A stretch of 64,000 bases of DNA. Origin: Neoaquamicrobium microcysteis. GTDB lineage: Bacteria > Pseudomonadota > Alphaproteobacteria > Rhizobiales > Rhizobiaceae. A program made the translations under genes and the position numbers. This document shows, piece after piece, positions 4,298 to 44,051 of this stretch (positions within the stretch are counted from its first letter, which is position 1; every line of letters starts with the position of its first letter). The notes beneath the pieces were generated by a model that was not told the DNA's origin, did no database searches, and worked only from the letters and a program-made list of their open reading frames with translations. The stretch covers positions 62,001-126,000 of the forward strand of contig NZ_VSZS01000065.1 of assembly GCF_008180155.1 (NCBI RefSeq), given 5' to 3'.

Positions 4298-4337
4298 GGC
4301 CGCCCGACGGAACACACCGTCGGGCGGCCTTTCATTT
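4298..4337 (+). terminator. Rho-independent terminator after mrcA
   Basis: A perfect 13-bp stem (4298-4310 with 4317-4329) closes a 6-base loop and is followed by TTTCATTTT. It separates mrcA from prfB. Confidence 0.9.
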
Positions 4338-4413
4338 TGCCTTTACAGGCTGTGGTGCGGTGCCTATGGTCCGCGCCGATTCAAGCACCCGAACATCAGG
4401 ACATCTTGCCGCC

Positions 4414-30945: not shown

Positions 30946-31000
30946 CTTGAAATTTCTGGCACGCCCAACGGGAATCGAACCCGTGTTTCCGCCGTGAAAG
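30946..31000. repeat. attL: 55-bp direct repeat, 3' part of tRNA-Glu
   Basis: Fifty-five bases identical to 43965-44019. They cover the 3' part of tRNA-Glu from the anticodon loop through CCA plus about 11 bp beyond (on the minus strand). The sequences diverge immediately on both sides. This is the left attachment site of the 13-kb element. Confidence 0.95.
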
Positions 31001-31108
31001 AGATGTATGTACGTCCATAAGAGTCCACCAAAGTTCAGTATAACCAATTGAAACGAAAGCGCTTTTCAACCGGCTATCCATCGGCTAACATTGGCGTCCA
31101 CACCCGTT

Positions 31109-31135
31109 GGTTGGACAAAAGTTGGACAAAAATGG
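31109..31135 (+). repeat. Left copy of a 27-bp arm-type repeat
   Basis: Two tandem TTGGACAAAA units, identical over 27 bp to 43920-43946 and in the same direction. It lies 108 bp inside attL and overlaps the start codon of the integrase gene, so integrase binding could also control its own expression. Confidence 0.8.
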
Positions 31136-32424
31136 CTAGGCGTTTTCGTGATTCCGGACTGGAAAGTAGAGCCGCTAGGACGAAGCTTGCAGTTCAGGCA
31201 AAGCCCTACTATCGAGCCATCGGCCCCGGCCTGAACATCGGCTACCGGAAAAACAAGAAGGGCGGCAAGTGGGTCGCCCGGTTCTACGTCGGCGACAAGG
31301 AATATCGTCTTGAAGCGGTAGCCGATGCAGACGACATGCTGGACGCGGATGGCGAAAACATTCTGGACTTCTGGCAGGCACAGGACCGAGCCCGGCAAAT
31401 GCAGGCCGACCTATCAGGCGAAACAGTCAAAGTCGCGAAGCGCATCACCGTTAAAGAGGCCGTGGACGATTACATCGAATGGATGGAAGGTAATCGGAAG
31501 TCGGCACAGGATGCACGCTATCGAGCCGACGCCTTGATCCTTCCCGCGCTCGGCGACAAGCTGGTGGACAAGCTGACCGCGAAAGAAATCCGCTCGTGGC
31601 TGCGAAAGGTGGCAGAAACCCCGCCAAGGGTCCGGTCAAAGAAGGGGGCTCAACCGAAATTCCGTGAATTGGATGATAGCCCTGAAGCTATCAGGCGGCG
31701 CAAGGCCTCGGCAAACCGAACCCTAACGGTGCTGAAAGCAGCTTTGAACCGCGCGTGGCGGGACGGCAGCACGCCCAGCGATTCCCAGTGGCGACGTGTT
31801 GAACCCTATCAGTCGGTTGACGCTGCCCGCGCTCGGTATCTCACGGTCGCCGAAGCCCAACGCCTCGTAAATGCTAGCGACCACGCCTTCCGGCTATTGG
31901 TGCAGGGTGCACTTCAGACCGGCGCGCGCTACGGCGAGCTAGCCGCGTTGACAGTTGCAGACTTTAATCCCGACGTCGGCACCGTAACGATACGCGAGAG
32001 CAAGGCGGGTAAGGCTCGTCACGTTGTCCTGACTGACGAGGGAAGGGACTACTTTTTGAGTGCCACGGCCGGCAGGGCAGGGGACGAACTCATGTTCCCC
32101 AACCATGCTGGAGAACCATGGCAGAAGTCCCAGCAAGCTCGTCCGATGATCGAAGCTTGCGAGCGTGCGAAGATCAAACCGGCCATCGGCTTCCACGGGC
32201 TCCGTCATACATGGGCGTCGCTGGCGGTCATGAATGGCGTTCCATTGATGGTTGTCGCTCGAAACCTTGGACACGCCGATACGCGAATGGTGGAAAAGCA
32301 CTACGGCCACCTTGCGCCCTCGTTCATCGCAGATGCCATCCGTGCCGGCGCGCCTCGTTTCGGCAATGCCGAACCATCCAACGTTGAAGCGCTGGATCGT
32401 TGGCGCGACGCGGCGGTCTCCTGA
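31132..32424 (+). CDS. int: Tyrosine recombinase integrase
   Basis: Catalyses integration and excision at tRNA-Glu. The 430-residue protein has an N-terminal arm-binding part, a core-binding SAM-like domain (ITVKEAVDDYIEWMEGNRKS) and the catalytic domain with all expected residues: R266 (TGARYGEL), H355 and R358 (HGLRHTW), H381 (LGHAD) and the nucleophile Y391 (HYGHL). ATG 31132 is chosen; the upstream frame would begin at a TTG and read through the repeat. No clear ribosome site precedes it, since the arm-type repeat occupies that place. Confidence 0.95.
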   Translation: MARRFRDSGLESRAARTKLAVQAKPYYRAIGPGLNIGYRKNKKGGKWVARFYVGDKEYRLEAVADADDMLDADGENILDFWQAQDRARQMQADLSGETVKVAKRITVKEAVDDYIEWMEGNRKSAQDARYRADALILPALGDKLVDKLTAKEIRSWLRKVAETPPRVRSKKGAQPKFRELDDSPEAIRRRKASANRTLTVLKAALNRAWRDGSTPSDSQWRRVEPYQSVDAARARYLTVAEAQRLVNASDHAFRLLVQGALQTGARYGELAALTVADFNPDVGTVTIRESKAGKARHVVLTDEGRDYFLSATAGRAGDELMFPNHAGEPWQKSQQARPMIEACERAKIKPAIGFHGLRHTWASLAVMNGVPLMVVARNLGHADTRMVEKHYGHLAPSFIADAIRAGAPRFGNAEPSNVEALDRWRDAAVS

Positions 32425-32551: not shown

Positions 32552-33517
32552 GTGGCATTTCTCAACAAAGAAACCGTGAAGCGTCGTAAGCAGTTTGGGC
32601 GTACCGAAATGTTTCCGCCCGAAGGGGTTAGGGTCGGCGACCGTCTCCGGGAAGTCGGCGACGTAACCAGCCTTGCATCGTCTATGTCCGTGGTCGGACT
32701 GGAGAACCCTATAGCCGTTCGCATGGTGAAAGAGGGGGACAGCGGCTATTTCCAGCTTGTCGCCGGGGCGCGTCGTCTTGCGGCCGCCAAGTCGCTGGGG
32801 TGGGACGCCATCGAATGTCATGTGTATGTAAACATGACCGACGACGAGGCCGAAGCGCTGGAGATTGTCGAGAACCTAGAGCGACAGGACCTCACGGCGG
32901 CCGAACGCAAGAAGTGGGTTAAGGCCCTTGCGGCGGCATATGGGCGGATGGACGCGGCAGTATCGGGACAAGATGACCCGAAACTAAGTAGCCGTGGACG
33001 CAAAGGGGAGGGTCGCCCCAAGGGGGTCGGGGCCAAGGTCGCCGAAGCCACGGGTATGTCAAAACGTCAAATCAACCGCATCCTTGCGGAAGACAAGAAG
33101 CCGGCCAAGGACGATACACCGCCGACGTTGCCGGGCCACACGTCCAGCAAGAGCCGACCACCTGCTAACGAAGTGGAGGCCGCCGGACTGGTGACGGAAG
33201 GCAACACGGAAGAGGGCCACGAGGAAGGGACGGAAGCCCCGAACGTGACCCGGTTCGGCGAGGCGAAGCGAAAGCTCGAAGAGGCGAAGAGGGGATCGCC
33301 GCTGATTGCGCGCGCCGATCACCGGGATGCGCTGTTCACGGCGATGATGGATGCTTGCGATAAGGGCGGCGTCCCTCTCTCCACCAAGGTCGGGAAGACG
33401 TGCGCCGAAGCTGCGTTGCGGTATTTCGAAACTGTAATGCGTACACCGGCCACAGAGCCCGATCTTGCCGACATGGAGTCGGTCGCTGACGGCAAGTCGA
33501 CACAGACGGTGGGCTAG
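32552..33517 (+). CDS. ParB/RepB-like nuclease-domain protein
   Basis: A 321-residue protein with a ParB N-terminal domain (residues about 20-110): ASSMSVVGLENPIAVR, GARRLAAAKSLGWDAI and EALEIVENLERQDLTAAER. A helix-turn-helix follows (GMSKRQINRIL) and the C-terminus is charged and variable. No ParA partner is next to it, so it may act as a regulator or replication factor of the element rather than a partition protein. The GTG at 32552 has AAGGAG upstream. Confidence 0.83.
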   Translation: MAFLNKETVKRRKQFGRTEMFPPEGVRVGDRLREVGDVTSLASSMSVVGLENPIAVRMVKEGDSGYFQLVAGARRLAAAKSLGWDAIECHVYVNMTDDEAEALEIVENLERQDLTAAERKKWVKALAAAYGRMDAAVSGQDDPKLSSRGRKGEGRPKGVGAKVAEATGMSKRQINRILAEDKKPAKDDTPPTLPGHTSSKSRPPANEVEAAGLVTEGNTEEGHEEGTEAPNVTRFGEAKRKLEEAKRGSPLIARADHRDALFTAMMDACDKGGVPLSTKVGKTCAEAALRYFETVMRTPATEPDLADMESVADGKSTQTVG

Positions 33518-33524
33518 GCAAGCT

Positions 33525-34481
33525 ATGACCGATCATGCTGCAAAAGCCCTATGTTTCGCTGTCCCCGTGCCGCCGTCGTGGAGCATACCTGAGAGAATGA
33601 CGGGTGCGGTGCGGCGCGCTGTTGAGGCACTCTGCATGAACCCCAAGGCGACCCGTGACCATAGAGTCACGATCTTTAGGGCAATCAGTCGGTTGACCGT
33701 GCTAGGTGACCCGCTTGACGCCTACGTCCGCAGTGAAGAGCAAGGGCCGATAACGCTTGCCGTTGCCCTTGGAATCTCCAACTTCGTCGCTCGGCGCGAC
33801 GAAGAGGCGACAGTGAAGCGACTAGACCGAAGCGGTTTCCAGACCTCCAAGATCGCTCCCCGCATCGGGCGGTCTGACAGGACGGTTAGGCGGCGCAAGC
33901 ACCGCGATATCGCTTATAGCGGTTGGAACAGCGATGACGACCTGCGGGCGGCCGTAGTGTTCGCAACGAAGACCCGCGAGTACGCCTATGGGGGCGATTG
34001 GGACATCAAATCCCGAGTTCTGCTCTTCGACGCCGCGCGTTGGTTCGCGCTAAAGAAGCGCCCAATCTCCTTTGAGCTATGGTGGGCAATCGCCTGTGCG
34101 CTTGGCCTCGCGAGCGGCACCATGGATGGGACCGGAGGACAGCGCGGAAGATTCACGAATGATGCCGTCTTGGCATTGTGGTGCGTGCCGCAGCCTGCAA
34201 AGCTCGCAGCGGCGGCCTGCCTTGTTGTGCAGGATGAAATGTTGGGTGAACCGCGCCGGAGCAATCGCGAGCTTGCGAAGGAACTCGGCTTGCTGCCATC
34301 CGTCGTTGACCGTTTTGTCAAAACGGACACGTTCAAACAACATGTGGCGGCCCATAGACTGTACGCGTGTCAGAACGTTCGTCACGCTACCGATCCGAGT
34401 CGCCTCGTGAATATCGCCGGCAAGCTTGTACCTGCCTCGTCAGTCAGGAAGTCTGTCCGCTTTCCTACCCTTCCCGACTAG
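33525..34481 (+). CDS. Element protein with helix-turn-helix, unknown function
   Basis: A 318-residue soluble protein starting at ATG 33525, 7 bp after the ParB-like gene. A resolvase-like helix-turn-helix (FQTSKIAPRIGRSDRTVRRR) sits at about residues 105-125, and a second possible one near NRELAKELGLLPSVVDRF. The rest matches no family I know. Together with ParB and AlpA it probably belongs to the control region. Confidence 0.72.
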   Translation: MTDHAAKALCFAVPVPPSWSIPERMTGAVRRAVEALCMNPKATRDHRVTIFRAISRLTVLGDPLDAYVRSEEQGPITLAVALGISNFVARRDEEATVKRLDRSGFQTSKIAPRIGRSDRTVRRRKHRDIAYSGWNSDDDLRAAVVFATKTREYAYGGDWDIKSRVLLFDAARWFALKKRPISFELWWAIACALGLASGTMDGTGGQRGRFTNDAVLALWCVPQPAKLAAAACLVVQDEMLGEPRRSNRELAKELGLLPSVVDRFVKTDTFKQHVAAHRLYACQNVRHATDPSRLVNIAGKLVPASSVRKSVRFPTLPD

Positions 34482-34492
34482 GGGGAGGGATT

Positions 34493-34517
34493 ATCTCCGC
34501 ATCGACATTGCGGAGAT
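34493..34517 (+). promoter_or_regulatory. Inverted repeat over the alpA ribosome site
   Basis: ATCTCCGCA (34493-34501) and TGCGGAGAT (34509-34517) form a perfect 9-bp stem with a 7-base loop. The right arm includes the GGAG that serves the GTG at 34523. It could hide that site in RNA or be an operator in DNA. Confidence 0.55.
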
Positions 34518-34522
34518 TTGAA

Positions 34523-34723
34523 GTGACCGAACACCAGACCCTCTTGCGTCTCGCTGACGTTCTTGCCCGCACCGGGCTGAAGCGTAGCACCCTCTACAAC
34601 CTGATAGCACGCGGCGACTTCCCGCGTCCCATCCGGCCGCAAGGGCTACGCGTGGCGCTTTTCTCGTCGGTCGCAGTCTCCGAATGGATCGAGTCCCAAC
34701 TGTCCAACGGAGAAACGAAATGA
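34523..34723 (+). CDS. alpA: AlpA-family transcriptional regulator
   Basis: A 66-residue MerR-like winged helix protein of the AlpA family: LLRLADVLARTGLKRSTLYN then FPRPIRPQG and SVAVSEWIESQL. In P4-like elements such proteins control integrase and excision. GTG start at 34523 behind GGAG; its stop overlaps the next start (ATGA). Confidence 0.88.
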   Translation: MTEHQTLLRLADVLARTGLKRSTLYNLIARGDFPRPIRPQGLRVALFSSVAVSEWIESQLSNGETK

Positions 34724-36337: not shown

Positions 36338-36448
36338 CGCGGCCGGCGGGTCGGAGCGGTTCTCTCCGGCGTTCCGGCCCGCCAACCTCTGTGGACGTTC
36401 ATGGATGCCCGTGGATCGTCGCTAAATTGCTGTTTTTGCTGCATAATT

Positions 36449-36464
36449 TATGCGCAAGCGCATA
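36449..36464. promoter_or_regulatory. Palindromic operator-like site before the primase gene
   Basis: TATGCGC and GCGCATA, separated by AA, form a perfect 7-bp inverted repeat in an AT-rich spot, 108 bp before the primase start. It has the look of a repressor site; the protein that binds it is unknown. Confidence 0.5.
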
Positions 36465-36488
36465 GCCGAAGCGCTTCTCGTTTCATGT

Positions 36489-36566
36489 TGTCGGGGCTTT
36501 CGGCTGGTCCCGACACAGGGGGCACGGGTGGTTCTCCTATGGCCGCTCGTGCCCGCCCCATAGGAG
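36489..36566 (+). promoter_or_regulatory. Structured leader with loop-to-Shine-Dalgarno pairing, before the primase gene
   Basis: Three elements lie in series. A hairpin has 7-bp arms at 36489-36495 and 36509-36515. A second hairpin has a 12-bp stem, two of the pairs GU (36520-36531 with 36543-36554), and an 11-base loop. The last 9 bases of that loop, CTCCTATGG (36534-36542), are fully complementary to CCATAGGAG (36558-36566), which is the ribosome site of the primase start at 36572. Only 3 bases separate the stem from that site, so a pseudoknot is possible. Its use as a translation switch is inference. Confidence 0.6.
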
Positions 36567-36571
36567 TCTGC

Positions 36572-37624
36572 ATGACCCAGCCGACCTTTGATCTTGATGG
36601 CGCGCGGCGTCACCTATCTGCCCTGACAGGTGAGCCGGACCCCGTCGTCGCTTTTCAGCTTTTCAGCGACGCCGACAAGACCAACACACGCCTTGCACGA
36701 GGGTTGCACGGCCGCCTAGACGACGTGCTGCCTCGTCTAACGGAAGCCCAGCGCCATGGATGCGGCGTCTTCGTGAGCGTCAACGAAACCGATGGCCGCG
36801 CCCGACGCAAAGAGAATATGCGCCATGCCCGCGCGCTCTTCCTCGATATGGACGGTGCGCCCTTGCCGGACACGTGGACCGTTGAGCCGCACCTAGTCGT
36901 GGCATCGTCCTGCCACGATGGCGTGAGCAAGTTTCAGTGCTGGTGGTTTGTTCAGCCCACTACCAAATGGGACGTATGGCAAAAGACAGAACGGGCGCTT
37001 GTCGAGCGCTACGGCGGCGATCCTAAATGTACGCTGACCACACAAGTTGGCAGGCTGGCGGGCTTCTACCACCTGAAGCGCCCGGCGCATCCGTGGCAGG
37101 TTCGTATTGTCCACGATGCTGGCGACGTGGCGCGGCACACGCTTGACGATCTGGTGGAAGCCTTCGGCTTCGACTTGTCCGCGATCACGCTGCCCCGCGC
37201 GCCTCACGTCAATGCTGGCGACCGGCCGCCGCCCAATGGCTGGGATGCTGACTTTGACGTCCTTGCCGCCCGCCGCCTTGTATCGGACCCCGATAACTGG
37301 ACCGCCACGAGCGACGGGGCCGTTAGTATCTATCAGATGGCCTGCCGTCTGCGCGATCTTGGTATTTCGCAAGGACTCGCCGTCGAACTGATCCGCGAAC
37401 ACGTTCCGGTTTTCCCCGATGCATGGCCTGACGATCATGTGGAGCGCAAGACCGCGCACGCATACCGCTACGGCCAGAACGACGCGGGCGTGTCGAGCCT
37501 TGAGGCCGACCGGCTCCACTTCGCCAACGCATTTTCCGATGACGACCTATTGCGGCGCGTCGATGCGGAAGAGAAGGCAAGAGCCGCTGCGATGTTCGGG
37601 CGCAAGGTGTCCGACCATGCGTGA
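36572..37624 (+). CDS. RepB-like DNA primase-domain protein
   Basis: A 350-residue protein whose N-terminal 200 residues resemble the archaeal/eukaryotic-type primase of mobile-element RepB proteins: GVFVSVNETDGRARRKENM, the acidic ALFLDMDGAPL, LVVASSCHDGVSKFQCWWFV and the VGRLAGFYHLKRPAHPW segment. It should make primers for replication of the excised element. The ATG at 36572 has AGGAG behind it; upstream in-frame ATGs lie in the structured leader. It overlaps the helicase gene by 8 bp. Confidence 0.8.
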   Translation: MTQPTFDLDGARRHLSALTGEPDPVVAFQLFSDADKTNTRLARGLHGRLDDVLPRLTEAQRHGCGVFVSVNETDGRARRKENMRHARALFLDMDGAPLPDTWTVEPHLVVASSCHDGVSKFQCWWFVQPTTKWDVWQKTERALVERYGGDPKCTLTTQVGRLAGFYHLKRPAHPWQVRIVHDAGDVARHTLDDLVEAFGFDLSAITLPRAPHVNAGDRPPPNGWDADFDVLAARRLVSDPDNWTATSDGAVSIYQMACRLRDLGISQGLAVELIREHVPVFPDAWPDDHVERKTAHAYRYGQNDAGVSSLEADRLHFANAFSDDDLLRRVDAEEKARAAAMFGRKVSDHA

Positions 37625-39248
37625 CCTGCCCACCGATCTGGAAACCGAAACGGAGACGGAACCGCACAACCGCTTCACTCACCTTTTCGCCATCACTCCG
37701 AAGCGCCGGGAACGACTGTTCCGGCCCGACAACCTGACGCTCCTTGCGGAACTGAAGGTCACGCACCGGGCGATGTACGAACGCTTGATGCGCCACCTTA
37801 CCGACAACGGCGTATCGAAGCTGCGTGAACTTGAAGCGGCCGTGGACAGGCGAGTTCGGGCAATCGAGAAGGCCGCGCGCAATCGTGGTGAGCCGGACAG
37901 CGGCAACGTCTCCCCGCTCGCCATGGCCCGGCGCTTTCGTGATGAGGTCCACCCCACGTTGCTCTGGTATGAAAGCGATTGGCTGCTCTACCGTGGCACC
38001 CACTATGATCTGGTTGAGCCCGATCTTGTGAAGCGCGACGTCTACGCCTTCATTGAAGATGCTGGCGGATCGCCCGACGCAAAGACAGTCAGCAATGTGC
38101 TGGACGCCCTGAAGGGCGTGGCGCTAGTCGAGCGCGGAACCTTTGCGCCCCCTTGCTGGCTGGACGCCGAAGAGGGCGACTTGCCCGCAGGGAAAATCCT
38201 GGCATGTGGCAACGGCCTATTGCACCTGCCCACCGGTGCGTTGTTGCCGTCGTCGTCGCGGTTCTTCACGCGCAACGGCTTGCCATATGACTATGACCCC
38301 GCAGCGCCGGAACCGGCTCACTGGCTGAAATTCCTTGCCGATCTATGGGGCCATGATCCCGAACAAATTAGGCTGTTGCAGGAACTATTCGGTTATCTGC
38401 TGATCCCCGATACCAGCCTGCAAAAGTTCTTCGTCCTGCTGGGGCCGCCGCGTAGCGGCAAGGGCACAATTCTGCGTGTGCTGGACCGCCTCCTAGGATC
38501 GACCAGCATATGCAGCCCGACGCTGGAGCATCTTGGGACGCGGTTCGGCCTTCAGGGCACACTAGGCAAGACGCTTGCCGTCATCGCCGATATGCGTCTT
38601 CCGACCGGGCGCAACGCCGACCGCCAGAACATCGTCGGCAACATTCTGCGCATCGTTGGCGAAGACCCGGTGGACGTAGAGCGCAAACACGTCGGCGGCG
38701 CGCTGACTGTTCGGCTCGCTATCCGCATCCTGATAGCCACGAACTTACCACCCGCCCTGCCGGACGTCAGCGGAGCGCTGACCGGCCGTCTCGTAGCGTT
38801 GAAAATGACAGAGTCTTTCCTTGGCCGTGAAGACCTGACACTGGACCGCCGGCTTCAAGCCGAACTCCCCGGAATCCTCAATTGGGCTATCGGGGGCTGG
38901 CGGCGCTTGCATGAGCAAGGCCATTTCACGGTCACGGCCGCCAGCCGCGACGTTGCCGACAACATGGCCGATCTGGCTTCGCCCCTAAACGCCTTCCTGC
39001 GCGATTGCTGTGAACTGGACCCCGAAGTATCGACGCCGAAAGGGGACGTATGGGCGGCATACCAATCATGGACGCTTCAGCAGGATTTGCCTCTTGGATA
39101 TTCCAGCCCGAATTTCTTCCATCGCGATCTGGAGGTAGCGGCCCGGCACAAGATCAAGACCGTTCGGCCTCGTGGCGATGATGGCCGCTCTTATCATTGG
39201 GCCGGTATTCGGATGTTGCAGCCTGCCCCTCACCCCGAAAGGAGTTAG
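37617..39248 (+). CDS. P4-type superfamily 3 helicase (primase C-terminal family)
   Basis: A 543-residue replicative helicase of the phage/plasmid P4 alpha type. The D5_N-like middle precedes an SF3 ATPase with Walker A GPPRSGKG (residues 276-283, K282), Walker B-like LAVIADMRLP, and a sensor segment RILIATNLPPALPD. Coupled to the primase gene, it gives a two-gene split of the usual primase-helicase. Together with the downstream inverted repeat it suggests self-directed replication after excision. Confidence 0.9.
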   Translation: MRDLPTDLETETETEPHNRFTHLFAITPKRRERLFRPDNLTLLAELKVTHRAMYERLMRHLTDNGVSKLRELEAAVDRRVRAIEKAARNRGEPDSGNVSPLAMARRFRDEVHPTLLWYESDWLLYRGTHYDLVEPDLVKRDVYAFIEDAGGSPDAKTVSNVLDALKGVALVERGTFAPPCWLDAEEGDLPAGKILACGNGLLHLPTGALLPSSSRFFTRNGLPYDYDPAAPEPAHWLKFLADLWGHDPEQIRLLQELFGYLLIPDTSLQKFFVLLGPPRSGKGTILRVLDRLLGSTSICSPTLEHLGTRFGLQGTLGKTLAVIADMRLPTGRNADRQNIVGNILRIVGEDPVDVERKHVGGALTVRLAIRILIATNLPPALPDVSGALTGRLVALKMTESFLGREDLTLDRRLQAELPGILNWAIGGWRRLHEQGHFTVTAASRDVADNMADLASPLNAFLRDCCELDPEVSTPKGDVWAAYQSWTLQQDLPLGYSSPNFFHRDLEVAARHKIKTVRPRGDDGRSYHWAGIRMLQPAPHPERS

Positions 39249-39252
39249 CGCC

Positions 39253-40035
39253 ATGTCCAAGGAAAAGGCCCTCGTGGCACGTGGCGCTGGCAAATGGGGC
39301 TTGGACGATTTCCCCAAGACCGGTTGGGAATGCGTGGGCACCACGGACTTGGGCAGCGCGGTCGCCACGTGTGAAATGTGCGAGTATATGGCGATCCGTT
39401 ATGTCCAGCACATGCAGCACCCCAGCGGTCTTGAACTGAAAGCGGGCTGCGAATGCGCCGGGCACATGACGGGCGATCTGGTGGCTGCACAAGGCCGTGA
39501 TAAGGCCATGAGGAATGCCGCTTCCCGTCATCGAAACCGTCAAAGATCACTTGAGAAGGACAAACGGCGGCTGGAGCCGTTGCGGAACAATCCTTCTGCG
39601 ATCCGGCAGATTCAAAGCATCCACCGCCGGGCCATGATCCGGGCAAGTGAGGCGACCGCCGAATACGAGAAGCATCCCAGCACGCCGCATTTCGACATGG
39701 AACTTGAGGCAGGCATGTTTGCCTTAGAGGCCGAAGCGGCCGTGGAAGCTGTCAAACAACAGCAGCCACCATACCGACTTCGCAAGGAACTATTGGCCTC
39801 CCATTGGACGCCGACTCCAAAAGGCCAGCGGCTCGAAACCTCACAAGGCGATATGGTGCAAGCATTCCAACGTGCGGACGGCTCATTCAGCTTTGGCTAT
39901 CAGTTGCGCAGACGGAAGATGGTGTGGTCGGCTAAAGAGTTCCCGACACTTGAGCAAGCCATGAGCAAAGGTCGGATGTATCTGATCCTAGACTTGAGAA
40001 GGGCGGGCAGACTGCCAGAGTTGCCGAAGCTGTAG
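39253..40035 (+). CDS. Element protein with cysteine pairs, unknown function
   Basis: A 260-residue basic protein (ATG 39253 behind AAAGGAG, 4 bp after the helicase). Near the N-terminus CEMCEY and, about 30 residues later, CECAGH give a CxxC...CxC set with a histidine, which could bind zinc. A helical stretch rich in arginine and lysine follows (residues about 85-115). The C-terminal LRRRKMVWSAKEFPTLEQAM part looks like a small folded domain. Proteins of this size are common after P4-type helicases, but I cannot name the function. Confidence 0.68.
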   Translation: MSKEKALVARGAGKWGLDDFPKTGWECVGTTDLGSAVATCEMCEYMAIRYVQHMQHPSGLELKAGCECAGHMTGDLVAAQGRDKAMRNAASRHRNRQRSLEKDKRRLEPLRNNPSAIRQIQSIHRRAMIRASEATAEYEKHPSTPHFDMELEAGMFALEAEAAVEAVKQQQPPYRLRKELLASHWTPTPKGQRLETSQGDMVQAFQRADGSFSFGYQLRRRKMVWSAKEFPTLEQAMSKGRMYLILDLRRAGRLPELPKL

Positions 40036-40070
40036 CCACGGACATGCTGTCATGGTGGCCATGGGCGATC

Positions 40071-40243
40071 TGGTCCGGGTGGTCTAGGCGGTCACACCCT
40101 TTTCCCGCCCTTTAGGAATTTCTCGCACACACATATCCTCTATCCATATTTTATCGCGCACGGAAAATTTCACACATAATAGATGTGTGTGAGAAAAGCC
40201 GAATAGGCGGACAAGGGTGTGACCGCCTAGACCACCTAGACCA
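40071..40243. repeat. Large inverted repeat with 9-bp iterons (candidate origin)
   Basis: Perfect 24-bp arms at 40078-40101 and 40213-40236 enclose 111 bp. The outer edges consist of 9-bp units: CCTAGACCA twice at 40226-40243, and in the opposite direction TGGTCCGGG (40071-40079) and TGGTCTAGG (40080-40088). Inside is a second inverted repeat (TTTCTC..ACACACAT, 40119-40134, with ATGTGTGTGAGAAA, 40183-40196) around a very AT-rich centre. Iterons, cruciform arms and an AT-rich core beside the replication genes fit a replication origin; oriT is an alternative. Confidence 0.7.
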
Positions 40244-40363
40244 TGGCCGGCCACAACAGCGACCTTCATGGGCGACTACGATGCGGCCGGACTGTTGCTT
40301 CAGGTTTTTCCGACTGCCAAGATCATGCGAATATGCGCACTGTCCGTTAGGAGATGCCCCAGC

Positions 40364-40729
40364 ATGTCAGCGAAAACCGCGATGTTGCTGTATCTGGCCC
40401 TTGCCACTCCGGCCTTGGCTGAAGAACCAACGGTGGCACTATGGGGCTGGGGAGGCGAAAGCTGTGGTCGCTGGCTTGAAATCCGACAAGGTCGCGCGAC
40501 AATGCCGCGCGCTAACGAAGCCATGACCCAATGGGTTCTCGGCTACCTGACCGCCTACAATACCTTTGTTAGTCGTACAGGTGACGTTTTCGCAAGGACC
40601 GATGCAGCGGCTATAAACGTGCTCGTTGATCGTGAATGTTCATCGGAGCCACAACAGCTTATCGCACCAGCGGTTGCCACTGTTATCCGCCTGCAAGAAC
40701 ATCGCGAGGATGGCGGCTCCGACGAATGA
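40364..40729 (+). CDS. Secreted small protein, Rap1a-immunity-like
   Basis: A 121-residue protein with a clear signal peptide (residues 1-19, TAMLLYLALATPALA) and two or more cysteines likely to pair (ESCGRW and DREC). The segment TQWVLGYLTAYN followed by an alpha-helical C-terminus resembles the Rap1a/Tai periplasmic immunity group common in rhizobia; the match is by eye only. ATG 40364 is chosen for the signal peptide, with GGAG about ten bases before. It is element cargo; an immunity or envelope role is inference. Confidence 0.62.
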   Translation: MSAKTAMLLYLALATPALAEEPTVALWGWGGESCGRWLEIRQGRATMPRANEAMTQWVLGYLTAYNTFVSRTGDVFARTDAAAINVLVDRECSSEPQQLIAPAVATVIRLQEHREDGGSDE

Positions 40730-41235
40730 CTTTGAGGCCGGCCAGAATTTTTCCGGCTGGCGGGTCCTCCCTGCGATTCAAATGCCATGCGGGGGTGCGA
40801 AGCGCGATCTGTGCCCAGCTATAGGATTTTCGTCCTATAGACTACCCGATTTGCCCGGCAACAGGACAGGAATGTTGTCCTATATGGCTTTCGGCCTACC
40901 GTCGCTTTGGTGTTGGGGTTGAAAGCCGAGTCGCGTGCGGGACGCCGGGCCGGCTGAAAGGCTTGCGGCTTATGGCATTGCCGAATTTGACCGGGTAGTT
41001 CGCCTTTTCGACCCGCATAGCCGTTGCCGTTCATTCGACAACGGAAGGGTGGGTTTTTTGGCCGTTGCGGTGCCGGGAGCGCGATGAGCCTGCAAAGCGC
41101 ACCAATACAGGCGGAACGCAATAGTTAATTGCATGCTCTATCGGACGAACGTATGATGCCACGTCGCCCGAAGTTCAACGGCACACGGGCGCTTGGGAGA
41201 GTAAATCGCGCTTTCGCCCCATGTGGAGAAAGCTT
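40730..41235. other. Non-coding stretch with stem-loops in the element
   Basis: About 500 bp without a supportable gene. A hairpin with 8-bp arms CTATAGGA/TCCTATAG (40820-40841, loop TTTTCG) and a second, AGGACA/TGTCCT (40863-40881), share the unit GTCCTATA. The right part reads in several frames without ribosome sites. Confidence 0.45.
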
Positions 41236-41640
41236 ATGTCTCATTTCGGCTTGTCGTACTACGGCATCGCTAGTCCGAAGCAGTTGACCGTTATGAGGAC
41301 GGCGCTGGACGCCTATTGCAAGCGCAACGGCATTGAGTCCAACGACCTAGAACGTGAAGATATTGGCCGGTTGATAGTCACACTCTTCAGCAACGGTGCG
41401 ACTACGGCCCGCCAACTGGACATCGCGCTTGAGATGGTCGCGGCATGCACTTCCGCGTCCAAAACTCGCACCATGGGCAAAATGTCCGCCTCCCCAGCGG
41501 AAGCCTCCTGCCCATCGGCCAACCCCTCTTACAGGAGTCATCGTCGGTGGAGGCCTGTGCTCAAAGGGCTTGCCCATCTTCGGGCGTGGCGTTCGCGCCG
41601 ACGTCGTGGTCGGGATGAGGAAGGTTCCAAGGAACGCTAG
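41236..41640 (+). CDS. Small element protein, unknown function, doubtful C-terminus
   Basis: A frame of 134 residues with ATG 41236 behind GGAGA. The first 70 residues (YYGIASPKQLTVMRTALDAY, then DLEREDIGRLIVTLFSNGAT) have the look of a real helical protein known in several rhizobial genomes. After about residue 80 the sequence turns into serine, proline and arginine-rich text and may be out-of-frame reading, so the 3' part could be degraded. Confidence 0.55.
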   Translation: MSHFGLSYYGIASPKQLTVMRTALDAYCKRNGIESNDLEREDIGRLIVTLFSNGATTARQLDIALEMVAACTSASKTRTMGKMSASPAEASCPSANPSYRSHRRWRPVLKGLAHLRAWRSRRRRGRDEEGSKER

Positions 41641-41892
41641 AGGATCGAGCCGGAGGCCAAGCGTGGTTATCGAGTACGCGCTGACCGTGCCGCATGGCAG
41701 CACCTCAAAATGGTTATCCGGGAATGCGGCGCTAGCATAGGGCCTCGACAGATTGCCAGTCTATGAAAGGGCTACATCGTCTGCTATCATCAATTGCAGC
41801 GGCCCCTCCATACAACAATAATGCCGCGCTTACCACTCACGTCACCTTAGAGCCATTGGCCAATCTGCTTTTGTTTGGCACGAGGTGACAGC

Positions 41893-42499: not shown

Positions 42500-42841
42500 A
42501 TGACGCAGATACCCAATGACGGCCGTTCGCGACATGGGGCGCAAGAAGGAACCTTACAGGCTGACTACGATGCCTTAATTGCGCGCCACGTCGCGGCCGG
42601 TTGGTCCGAAGGCGAATTGGCGCTCGCCATGGAACGGCTAGCGCAAGAGCATATAGGGAACTTGGCGAGGCACGATGCCAGTGAGCTATCGACGGCGGCA
42701 CGCTACGAAGCGCAGTTCTCCGACTTGCCAGTGGGTGACGACGAGCCGCCTAGCGTCCGCAGGAAGGCGCTGGCGTATGGAGCCCTGATAATCGTGGCGG
42801 GTGTGCTGGTGACGCTGCTAGGGGCGCTGGTGGCTATCTAA
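42500..42841 (+). CDS. Small protein with C-terminal membrane anchor
   Basis: A 113-residue protein with a cytosolic helical part (residues 1-88) and one C-terminal transmembrane helix (YGALIIVAGVLVTLLGALVA). It starts 12 bp after the gene pair on the same strand and may form an operon with it. Tail-anchored topology; unknown function. Confidence 0.6.
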   Translation: MTQIPNDGRSRHGAQEGTLQADYDALIARHVAAGWSEGELALAMERLAQEHIGNLARHDASELSTAARYEAQFSDLPVGDDEPPSVRRKALAYGALIIVAGVLVTLLGALVAI

Positions 42842-43209
42842 ATCCTGGACTTCCGCCACCCGGCCGCGCGCGCTTCGGCCTCGCTGCAAAACCAGCGTTC
42901 GCCATGTTGAGGCGATATCACCGTGTCGTGGTAATACCGCTGGCCGGGGACGTGATAGATGCGCTCGCCAGTCTCAATCGACACGTTGCCTTTGATCGTG
43001 CAGCCCGAACCGGGAGCCATCGCTTTGAAGCTTCCGAGCGATGCACCGCCGGACGTGTAGCCAACGCCCGCCGCGCTCGCCAGCAACAAGCCAGTCAGCA
43101 TCGCCGGCACGGATAGCCTCTTGCGCGCCGCTCGCTTGCGGCGGGCCTCTTCGTCAAAGCGATACTTGCGCGCACCGCGCCAGTTCGATGAGTAGTCACG
43201 ACGGGCCAT
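42838..43209 (-). CDS. Membrane-anchored sunset-domain-like protein
   Basis: A 123-residue protein: a basic N-terminus, one transmembrane helix (VPAMLTGLLLASAAGVGYTS, residues about 34-54) and a C-terminal domain IKGNVSIETGERIYHVPGQR ending GERWFCSEAEARAAGWRKSR. That domain is typical of rhizobial ExoI/nuclease-associated sunset domains with two cysteines. It converges with the tail-anchored gene, overlapping by 4 bp. No nuclease domain is attached here. Confidence 0.75.
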   Translation of the reverse strand: MARRDYSSNWRGARKYRFDEEARRKRAARKRLSVPAMLTGLLLASAAGVGYTSGGASLGSFKAMAPGSGCTIKGNVSIETGERIYHVPGQRYYHDTVISPQHGERWFCSEAEARAAGWRKSRI

Positions 43210-43964: not shown

Positions 43965-44019
43965 CTTGAAATTTCTGGCACGCCCAACGGGAATCGAACC
44001 CGTGTTTCCGCCGTGAAAG
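43965..44019. repeat. attR: 55-bp direct repeat within tRNA-Glu
   Basis: The right copy of the att repeat, identical to 30946-31000, running through the 3' part of the intact tRNA-Glu gene. Confidence 0.95.
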
Positions 44020-44051
44020 GGCGGCGTCCTAGACCGCTAGACGATGGGCGC
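43976..44051 (-). tRNA. tRNA-Glu (TTC)
   Basis: A 76-base cloverleaf including an encoded CCA (43976-43978). The acceptor stem is GCGCCCA with TGGGCGT, the anticodon arm CCGCC-CTTTCAC-GGCGG has anticodon TTC, and the T arm contains GGTTCGATTCC. It is the integration target; its 3' part now belongs to the element side of attR. Confidence 0.96.

Follow-up and report, generated by a model that had tools for sequence, protein, structure and literature searches.

A candidate replication origin with opposed 9-bp iterons downstream of a P4/D5-family helicase in an integrated element of Neoaquamicrobium microcysteis

The window, by which we mean the whole 64-kb stretch of Neoaquamicrobium microcysteis DNA that was analyzed, contains a 13-kb integrated element bounded by exact 55-bp direct repeats, the right one overlapping a tRNA-Glu gene (Table 1). 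Between its ends the element carries an integrase, a ParB-like gene, a primase, a helicase, and, as judged from sequence, an AlpA-type regulator, and so has the integrase, attachment site, and regulator by which a PICI is recognized as a whole element. Of 18 element frames scanned, none was recognized as a relaxase, terminase, or capsid gene (not every frame was compared with every library), and no phage-interference or packaging gene was recognized among the scanned frames either. Scans of open frames lying beyond the site described below gave a single informative match, the small sunset-domain protein, which also matches a membrane-associated PHROG. Searches of the whole genome with TIGR01613 returned one P4-family helicase, the element's own, and searches with PF03432 returned one relaxase, which lies outside the element (C47:181144).

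Table 1. Features of the integrated element and of the candidate origin (window coordinates)
Feature	Position	Strand	Remarks
attL, 55-bp exact direct repeat	30946..31000		
Tyrosine integrase	31048..32424	+	
ParB-N domain protein	32552..33517	+	
AlpA-type excisionase/regulator (putative)	34367..34723	+	Open frame; true start possibly further in
RepB-type primase gene	36401..37624	+	Open frame; PF16793, E 1.4e-7
P4/D5-family helicase, presumed initiator	37620..39248	+	TIGR01613, E 1.1e-39; start codon putative
Accessory gene, between helicase and candidate origin	39253..40035	+	
Left arm	40071..40105	+	Three 9-bp GGTC-core iterons plus CCTTTTCC
Spacer, candidate unwinding region	40106..40208		103 bp, 42% GC
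Inner inverted repeat, left	40120..40134	+	TTCTCGCACACACAT; overlaps 13-nt alternating purine-pyrimidine run CGCACACACATAT
Inner inverted repeat, right	40183..40197	-	ATGTGTGTGAGAAAA
Right arm	40209..40243	-	Three mirrored iterons, GACC cores
Small sunset-domain protein, near right element end	42838..43209	-	NF051437, E 2.7e-13
attR, 55-bp exact direct repeat	43965..44019		Overlaps 3' part of tRNA-Glu (43976-44051, minus)

The accessory gene stands between the helicase stop and the site, so the initial annotation was right to place the site one gene after the helicase. The N-terminal ~85 residues of the accessory protein recur in other small proteins. Matches to it were found in 15 genomes besides its own among the 397 of the order (in one of these, the C-terminal part alone is matched) and in 41 plasmid records; some relatives adjoin a DncV-like cyclase and a ThiF gene (L037) or come after WYL/WGR genes (L038). 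The protein had no PADLOC match, and neither it nor the primase had a match in the viral contigs.

The site itself, 40071-40243, is a large inverted repeat whose 35-nt arms pair at 32 of 35 positions. The longest unbroken pairing is 24 bp (40078-40101 with 40213-40236), in agreement with the perfect 24-bp arms that had been annotated. In a scan with 10-nt exact seeds, this was the sole repeat in the window with a score of at least 16 and a spacer of up to 300; its score is 26, whereas the maxima averaged 12.8 and never exceeded 15 when the whole window was dinucleotide-shuffled 40 times. Folded as single-stranded DNA, the segment reached a z score of -10.7 against its own shuffles, none of the 200 being as good.

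Each arm is built of short iterons. Outer 9-bp iterons in both directions had been described, and this is correct for the right arm, where CCTAGACCA is found exactly at 40226 and 40235, but only in part for the left arm, where TGGTCTAGG is exact once (40080) and the outermost unit, TGGTCCGGG, carries two changes. Three 9-bp units per arm are a better description than two exact outer iterons: the left arm reads TGGTCCGGG, TGGTCTAGG, CGGTCACAC in order, and the right arm, read inward on the opposite strand, reads TGGTCTAGG, TGGTCTAGG, CGGTCACAC. The GGTC cores of the left arm (40072, 40081, and 40090) follow one another in exact 9-bp steps and are mirrored by GACC at 40221, 40230, and 40239 in the right arm. 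No further GGTC triple at 9-bp steps occurs on either strand of the 64-kb window. The iteron octamer CCTAGACC is also present at 44028, in the tRNA-Glu gene and outside the att repeat, probably by chance.

The annotated AT-rich center and inner second inverted repeat were both seen. The spacer compares with 59.5% GC for the whole element, and the lowest 70-bp GC content of the 13-kb element (35.7%) falls within it, in segments starting at 40111, 40112, and 40117. The inner repeat (15 nt, 87%) is built from CACACA/TGTGTG runs. No DNA relative of the site was found at E <= 0.001 in 199 genomes other than its own, nor in a plasmid search with 36400-41700, and in the rest of its own genome only stretches of 15 to 29 bases resemble it, with E values of 0.475 or worse (the best being 19 nt).

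The presumed initiator is a distant homologue of P4 alpha (23% over 305 columns, E 6e-10). Against solved structures, the profile of the helicase family matched the SaPI5 primase-helicase 7ola (E 3.2e-26) and, at profile positions 392-466 near the C-terminal end, RFX winged-helix structures (E 1.1e-5 and 3.2e-5). PF02257 (RFX) was matched by 4 of 15 family members; the window's own helicase gave no RFX match, and its last 100 residues alone gave only an unrelated weak match. A Foldseek search with the AlphaFold model of the helicase (pLDDT 83.7) ranked 7ola first (E 1.9e-17), with the African swine fever PrimPol close behind (6.1e-17) and D5-type helicases also near. Profile and model thus both place the protein with the SaPI/P4-type primase-helicases that serve as initiators, the primase being a separate gene here. 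The origin-binding domain of P4 alpha is also a winged helix.

Relatives of the helicase were collected at 10 further loci in the 397 genomes of the order, at 17 loci in bacterial genomes, at 1 + 16 in viral contigs, and from named phages, for which five of 713 matching records were taken. Single-sequence helicase queries yielded one viral and no genome loci, and an alignment query yielded 17 genome and 16 viral loci. After 16 of 50 loci had been dropped as redundant, the first 600 bp after the helicase stop in the remaining 34 were compared with 398 other 600-bp blocks, mostly coding. Inverted repeats scoring at least 14 were found in 12/34 loci versus 11/398 control blocks (Fisher p 6e-9 without the window), a count in which the window is scored as a miss because the accessory gene pushes its repeat to +822, and which includes one locus (L047) on account of a 23-bp repeat unlike iterons. 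A 7-mer with at least five copies, both strands counted, was present in 12/34 loci and 6/398 controls (Fisher p 1e-10). Seven of the nine non-redundant loci of the order had at least five iteron copies and the other two had three, although at least three copies are also seen in 217/398 controls. The dip in GC content was deeper in the 3' regions than in the controls (median -0.18 versus -0.098, p 5.7e-9, with the window taken at +802). Against ORF-free controls the contrast was smaller and weaker, both for repeats scoring at least 14 (4/13 versus 7/57) and for iterons with at least five copies (4/13 versus 2/57).

In many of these loci the repeat starts within ~160 bp of the stop and has opposed sets of short iterons on either side of a 33- to 118-base spacer. 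The spacing of iterons on the same strand is mostly 9 to 11 bp: 10 bp in L027, L028, L029, L032, L043, and L056; 9 bp in L033, L040, and L046; and both 9 and 11 bp in L030 and L039. The exceptions are L031 (8 bp), L034 (13 and 9 bp), and L035 (none). The iterons themselves differ, as in Kaistia adipata (GATGCGC; L045, same place as L028), a Rhizobium MAG (ACGCGGT; L043), planctomycete-group MAG contigs (TCGGTCC in L039, GTCCGGG in L040, and ACTGTGA in L046), and viral contigs (TGGCACA in L056, GACACGC in L069, and TGTTCCA in L071). The gene that follows the iterons in L027 and L028 codes for the small subunit of a terminase (PF03592, E 1.1e-37 and 3.4e-33). A good fraction of the related helicases are followed on the 3' side by this layout, spelled in other letters. 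Absence from related elements, named by the initial annotation as an outcome that would refute its reading, is therefore found for the letters of the site but not for its architecture.

The layout was not seen everywhere. None of the four non-redundant named phages had a repeat scoring at least 14 (L072, L073, and L075 had nothing of at least 10, and L076 reached 11), and the planctomycete-group and actinobacterial loci L041, L042, and L044 had no such repeat either (scores 0, 11, and 11). Two spacers were not GC-poor relative to the 1.5 kb that follows the stop (0.67 versus 0.65 in L046 and 0.58 versus 0.56 in L033). Over 16 loci, similarity of the iterons, whose words were chosen by eye, gave no signal with relatedness of the helicases (rho 0.08, p 0.19). 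Strong inverted repeats lie elsewhere in L059 (score 22) and in L070, a viral contig in which a repeat scoring 48 is found at 1751-2351, upstream of the helicase.

The spacers of some loci also contain alternating purine-pyrimidine tracts. Alternating runs of at least 13 occur in 9/34 3' regions (window taken at +802) and in 15/847 control blocks, a count made without choosing regions. In a survey of 18 spacers chosen by eye, L033, L034, L056, and L065 had tracts of 23 to 28 nt, located between opposed iterons 3' of the helicase; L056 and L065, which are both among the nine, are not independent, because their iterons and much of the spacer are common to both. Four of the nine tract-bearing loci (L048, L049, L050, and L053) are distant Firmicutes without a visible two-armed iteron origin. 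Since the spacers of L030, L035, L040, and L055 have no alternating run above 5, the tract marks a subclass at most. Such a tract might make opening easier or supply primer starts; the pRN1 primase is reported to start at GTG (PMC4234260).

Among known replicons, the closest likeness is to the origins of PICIs and SaPIs, described as two oppositely oriented iteron sets on either side of an AT-rich region, immediately 3' of the initiator gene (PMC6092414). The site likewise lies on the 3' side of a helicase gene and has two opposed iteron sets with an AT-rich region between them, the modeled helicase is nearest the SaPI5 primase-helicase, and the element has an integrase and an AlpA-like gene. 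It differs in that neither a terminase small subunit nor a capsid-redirecting gene was recognized in the scanned frames, in the 0.8 kb and the accessory gene that separate the site from the helicase, and in the presence of a ParB-like gene. SaPI origins are said to mirror that of SV40 in having oppositely oriented repeats and a pair of hexamers placed head to head (PMC9894130). For the window, the SV40 origin with T-antigen, whose opposed repeats load two such hexamers, is a mechanistic analogy only.

In the P4 record, crr ("cis required region for replication") is annotated on the 3' side of alpha; its type 1 repeats lie on the plus strand at 4314 and 4323 and on the minus strand at 4366 and 4384, with a fifth on the plus strand at 4398. 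As in the window, opposed sets of repeats (8 bp, the plus pair being 9 bp apart) lie 3' of the helicase gene. Unlike the window, P4 carries type 1 repeats at two sites, ori and crr, which lie more than 4 kb apart; the iteron triple of the window is confined to 40071-40243, once per arm. In addition, crr consists of two 120-bp direct repeats, its opposed repeats pair less well, and primase and helicase are separate genes in the window's element. Because crr scores 12 in the same scan, it would itself miss the cutoff of 14. In archaea, plasmid pRN1 needs a ~100-bp stem-loop located 54 bp after its primase-helicase gene orf904 in order to replicate; the letters of this stem-loop vary within the family while the structure is kept, and its authors report like stem-loops in several bacteriophages (PMC4234260). 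In contrast to the window, the pRN1 origin is read as a stem-loop, and iterons are not part of it as described there.

Taken together, these observations suggest that 40071-40243 is most likely an origin of the PICI/SaPI/P4-crr kind, in a divergent, integrative, satellite-like element. The reading follows from the unique opposed three-iteron arms, which flank the AT-richest stretch of an element having its own primase and P4/D5 helicase, from the recurrence of the layout 3' of related helicases, and from the likeness of the helicase model to the SaPI5 initiator helicase. Of the two functions initially proposed, an initiation site or a transfer origin, the former is well supported by the comparison of loci and by the PICI/SaPI publications, and the latter found no support.

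We also weighed other functions. The site is intergenic and ahead of a plus-strand gene, and its inner repeat resembles an operator, so the arms and inner CACACAT palindromes might be repressor sites in a promoter region controlling the gene at 40268 or the operon; origins can double as operators. This seems improbable, as a search restricted to sigma-70-type promoters found none, nor any terminator-like site, in 39900-40400, three phased iterons per arm around a 103-bp GC-poor spacer exceed, in our judgment, what an operator needs, and like layouts recur 3' of other helicases. Less probable still is an oriT used in trans by the relaxase of another element, with the arms as binding sites for relaxase or accessory proteins beside the nick site. 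Inverted repeats are common in oriTs, and one PF03432 relaxase is encoded elsewhere in the genome; however, the element's scanned frames gave no relaxase-family match, and none of the look-alikes listed in the genome, all as poor as those noted above, lies near that relaxase. No cognate relaxase and no likeness to a resident oriT were thus found in the scanned frames and own genome. Moreover, the layout tracks the helicase and is present in viral contigs and in loci that have a gene for the small subunit of a terminase.

Two further readings are very remote. The segment, 173 bp long and bounded by terminal inverted repeats of 35 bp, has the form of a small nonautonomous transposable element (MITE), but it is present in one copy in the genome and matched in none of 199 others, lacks a flanking direct repeat at the four possible end pairs tried, and has arms that consist of phased iterons; neither multiple copies nor a target-site duplication was found. 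A regulatory role as a structured RNA, or as a transcript that forms a long hairpin, would fit the very stable predicted fold (DNA parameters), yet such a fold is expected of any long inverted repeat, Rfam at up to E 1 returned for 39800-40500 only two microRNA families, both far below their cutoffs (34.1 versus 140 and 19 versus 99 bits), and related loci keep the layout and not the sequence.

We regard it as highly probable that 40071-40243 is the element's own replication origin, and hexamer loading most likely follows the model below. Upon excision of the element, the helicase would bind the iterons through a C-terminal winged-helix-like domain, with the 9-bp iteron steps corresponding to roughly one helical turn. 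One helicase hexamer would then probably assemble on each arm in opposite orientation, giving a head-to-head pair. The spacer would melt, the neighboring primase would prime, and copying would presumably run bidirectionally, as proposed for SaPI and SV40 origins.

The organization of PICI/SaPI origins has been stated to occur in no other known bacterial replicon. If functional, the helicase loci described here weaken that claim. A more speculative extension, which we consider possible but rather doubtful, is that opposed, helically phased iterons, placed after the helicase and enclosing a spacer that is mostly GC-poor, are the general origin design of P4/D5-helicase replicons, from phage-like and planctomycete-group MAG contigs to satellites, with fast-changing letters, and that a subclass, including the window's site, carries in its spacer an alternating purine-pyrimidine (CA/CG) tract that could act as a specialized, Z-DNA-prone opening or as a primer-start element. 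The idea is already partly in print, because PMC4234260 reports stem-loops 3' of such genes in several bacteriophages; no broader survey of iteron origins following helicases of this type was seen in the titles, abstract openings, and passages of cited papers that were covered. If the design is general, the origins of many uncharacterized satellites and phages would be locatable from the helicase gene alone, and every helicase-iteron pair would be a separate replication specificity.
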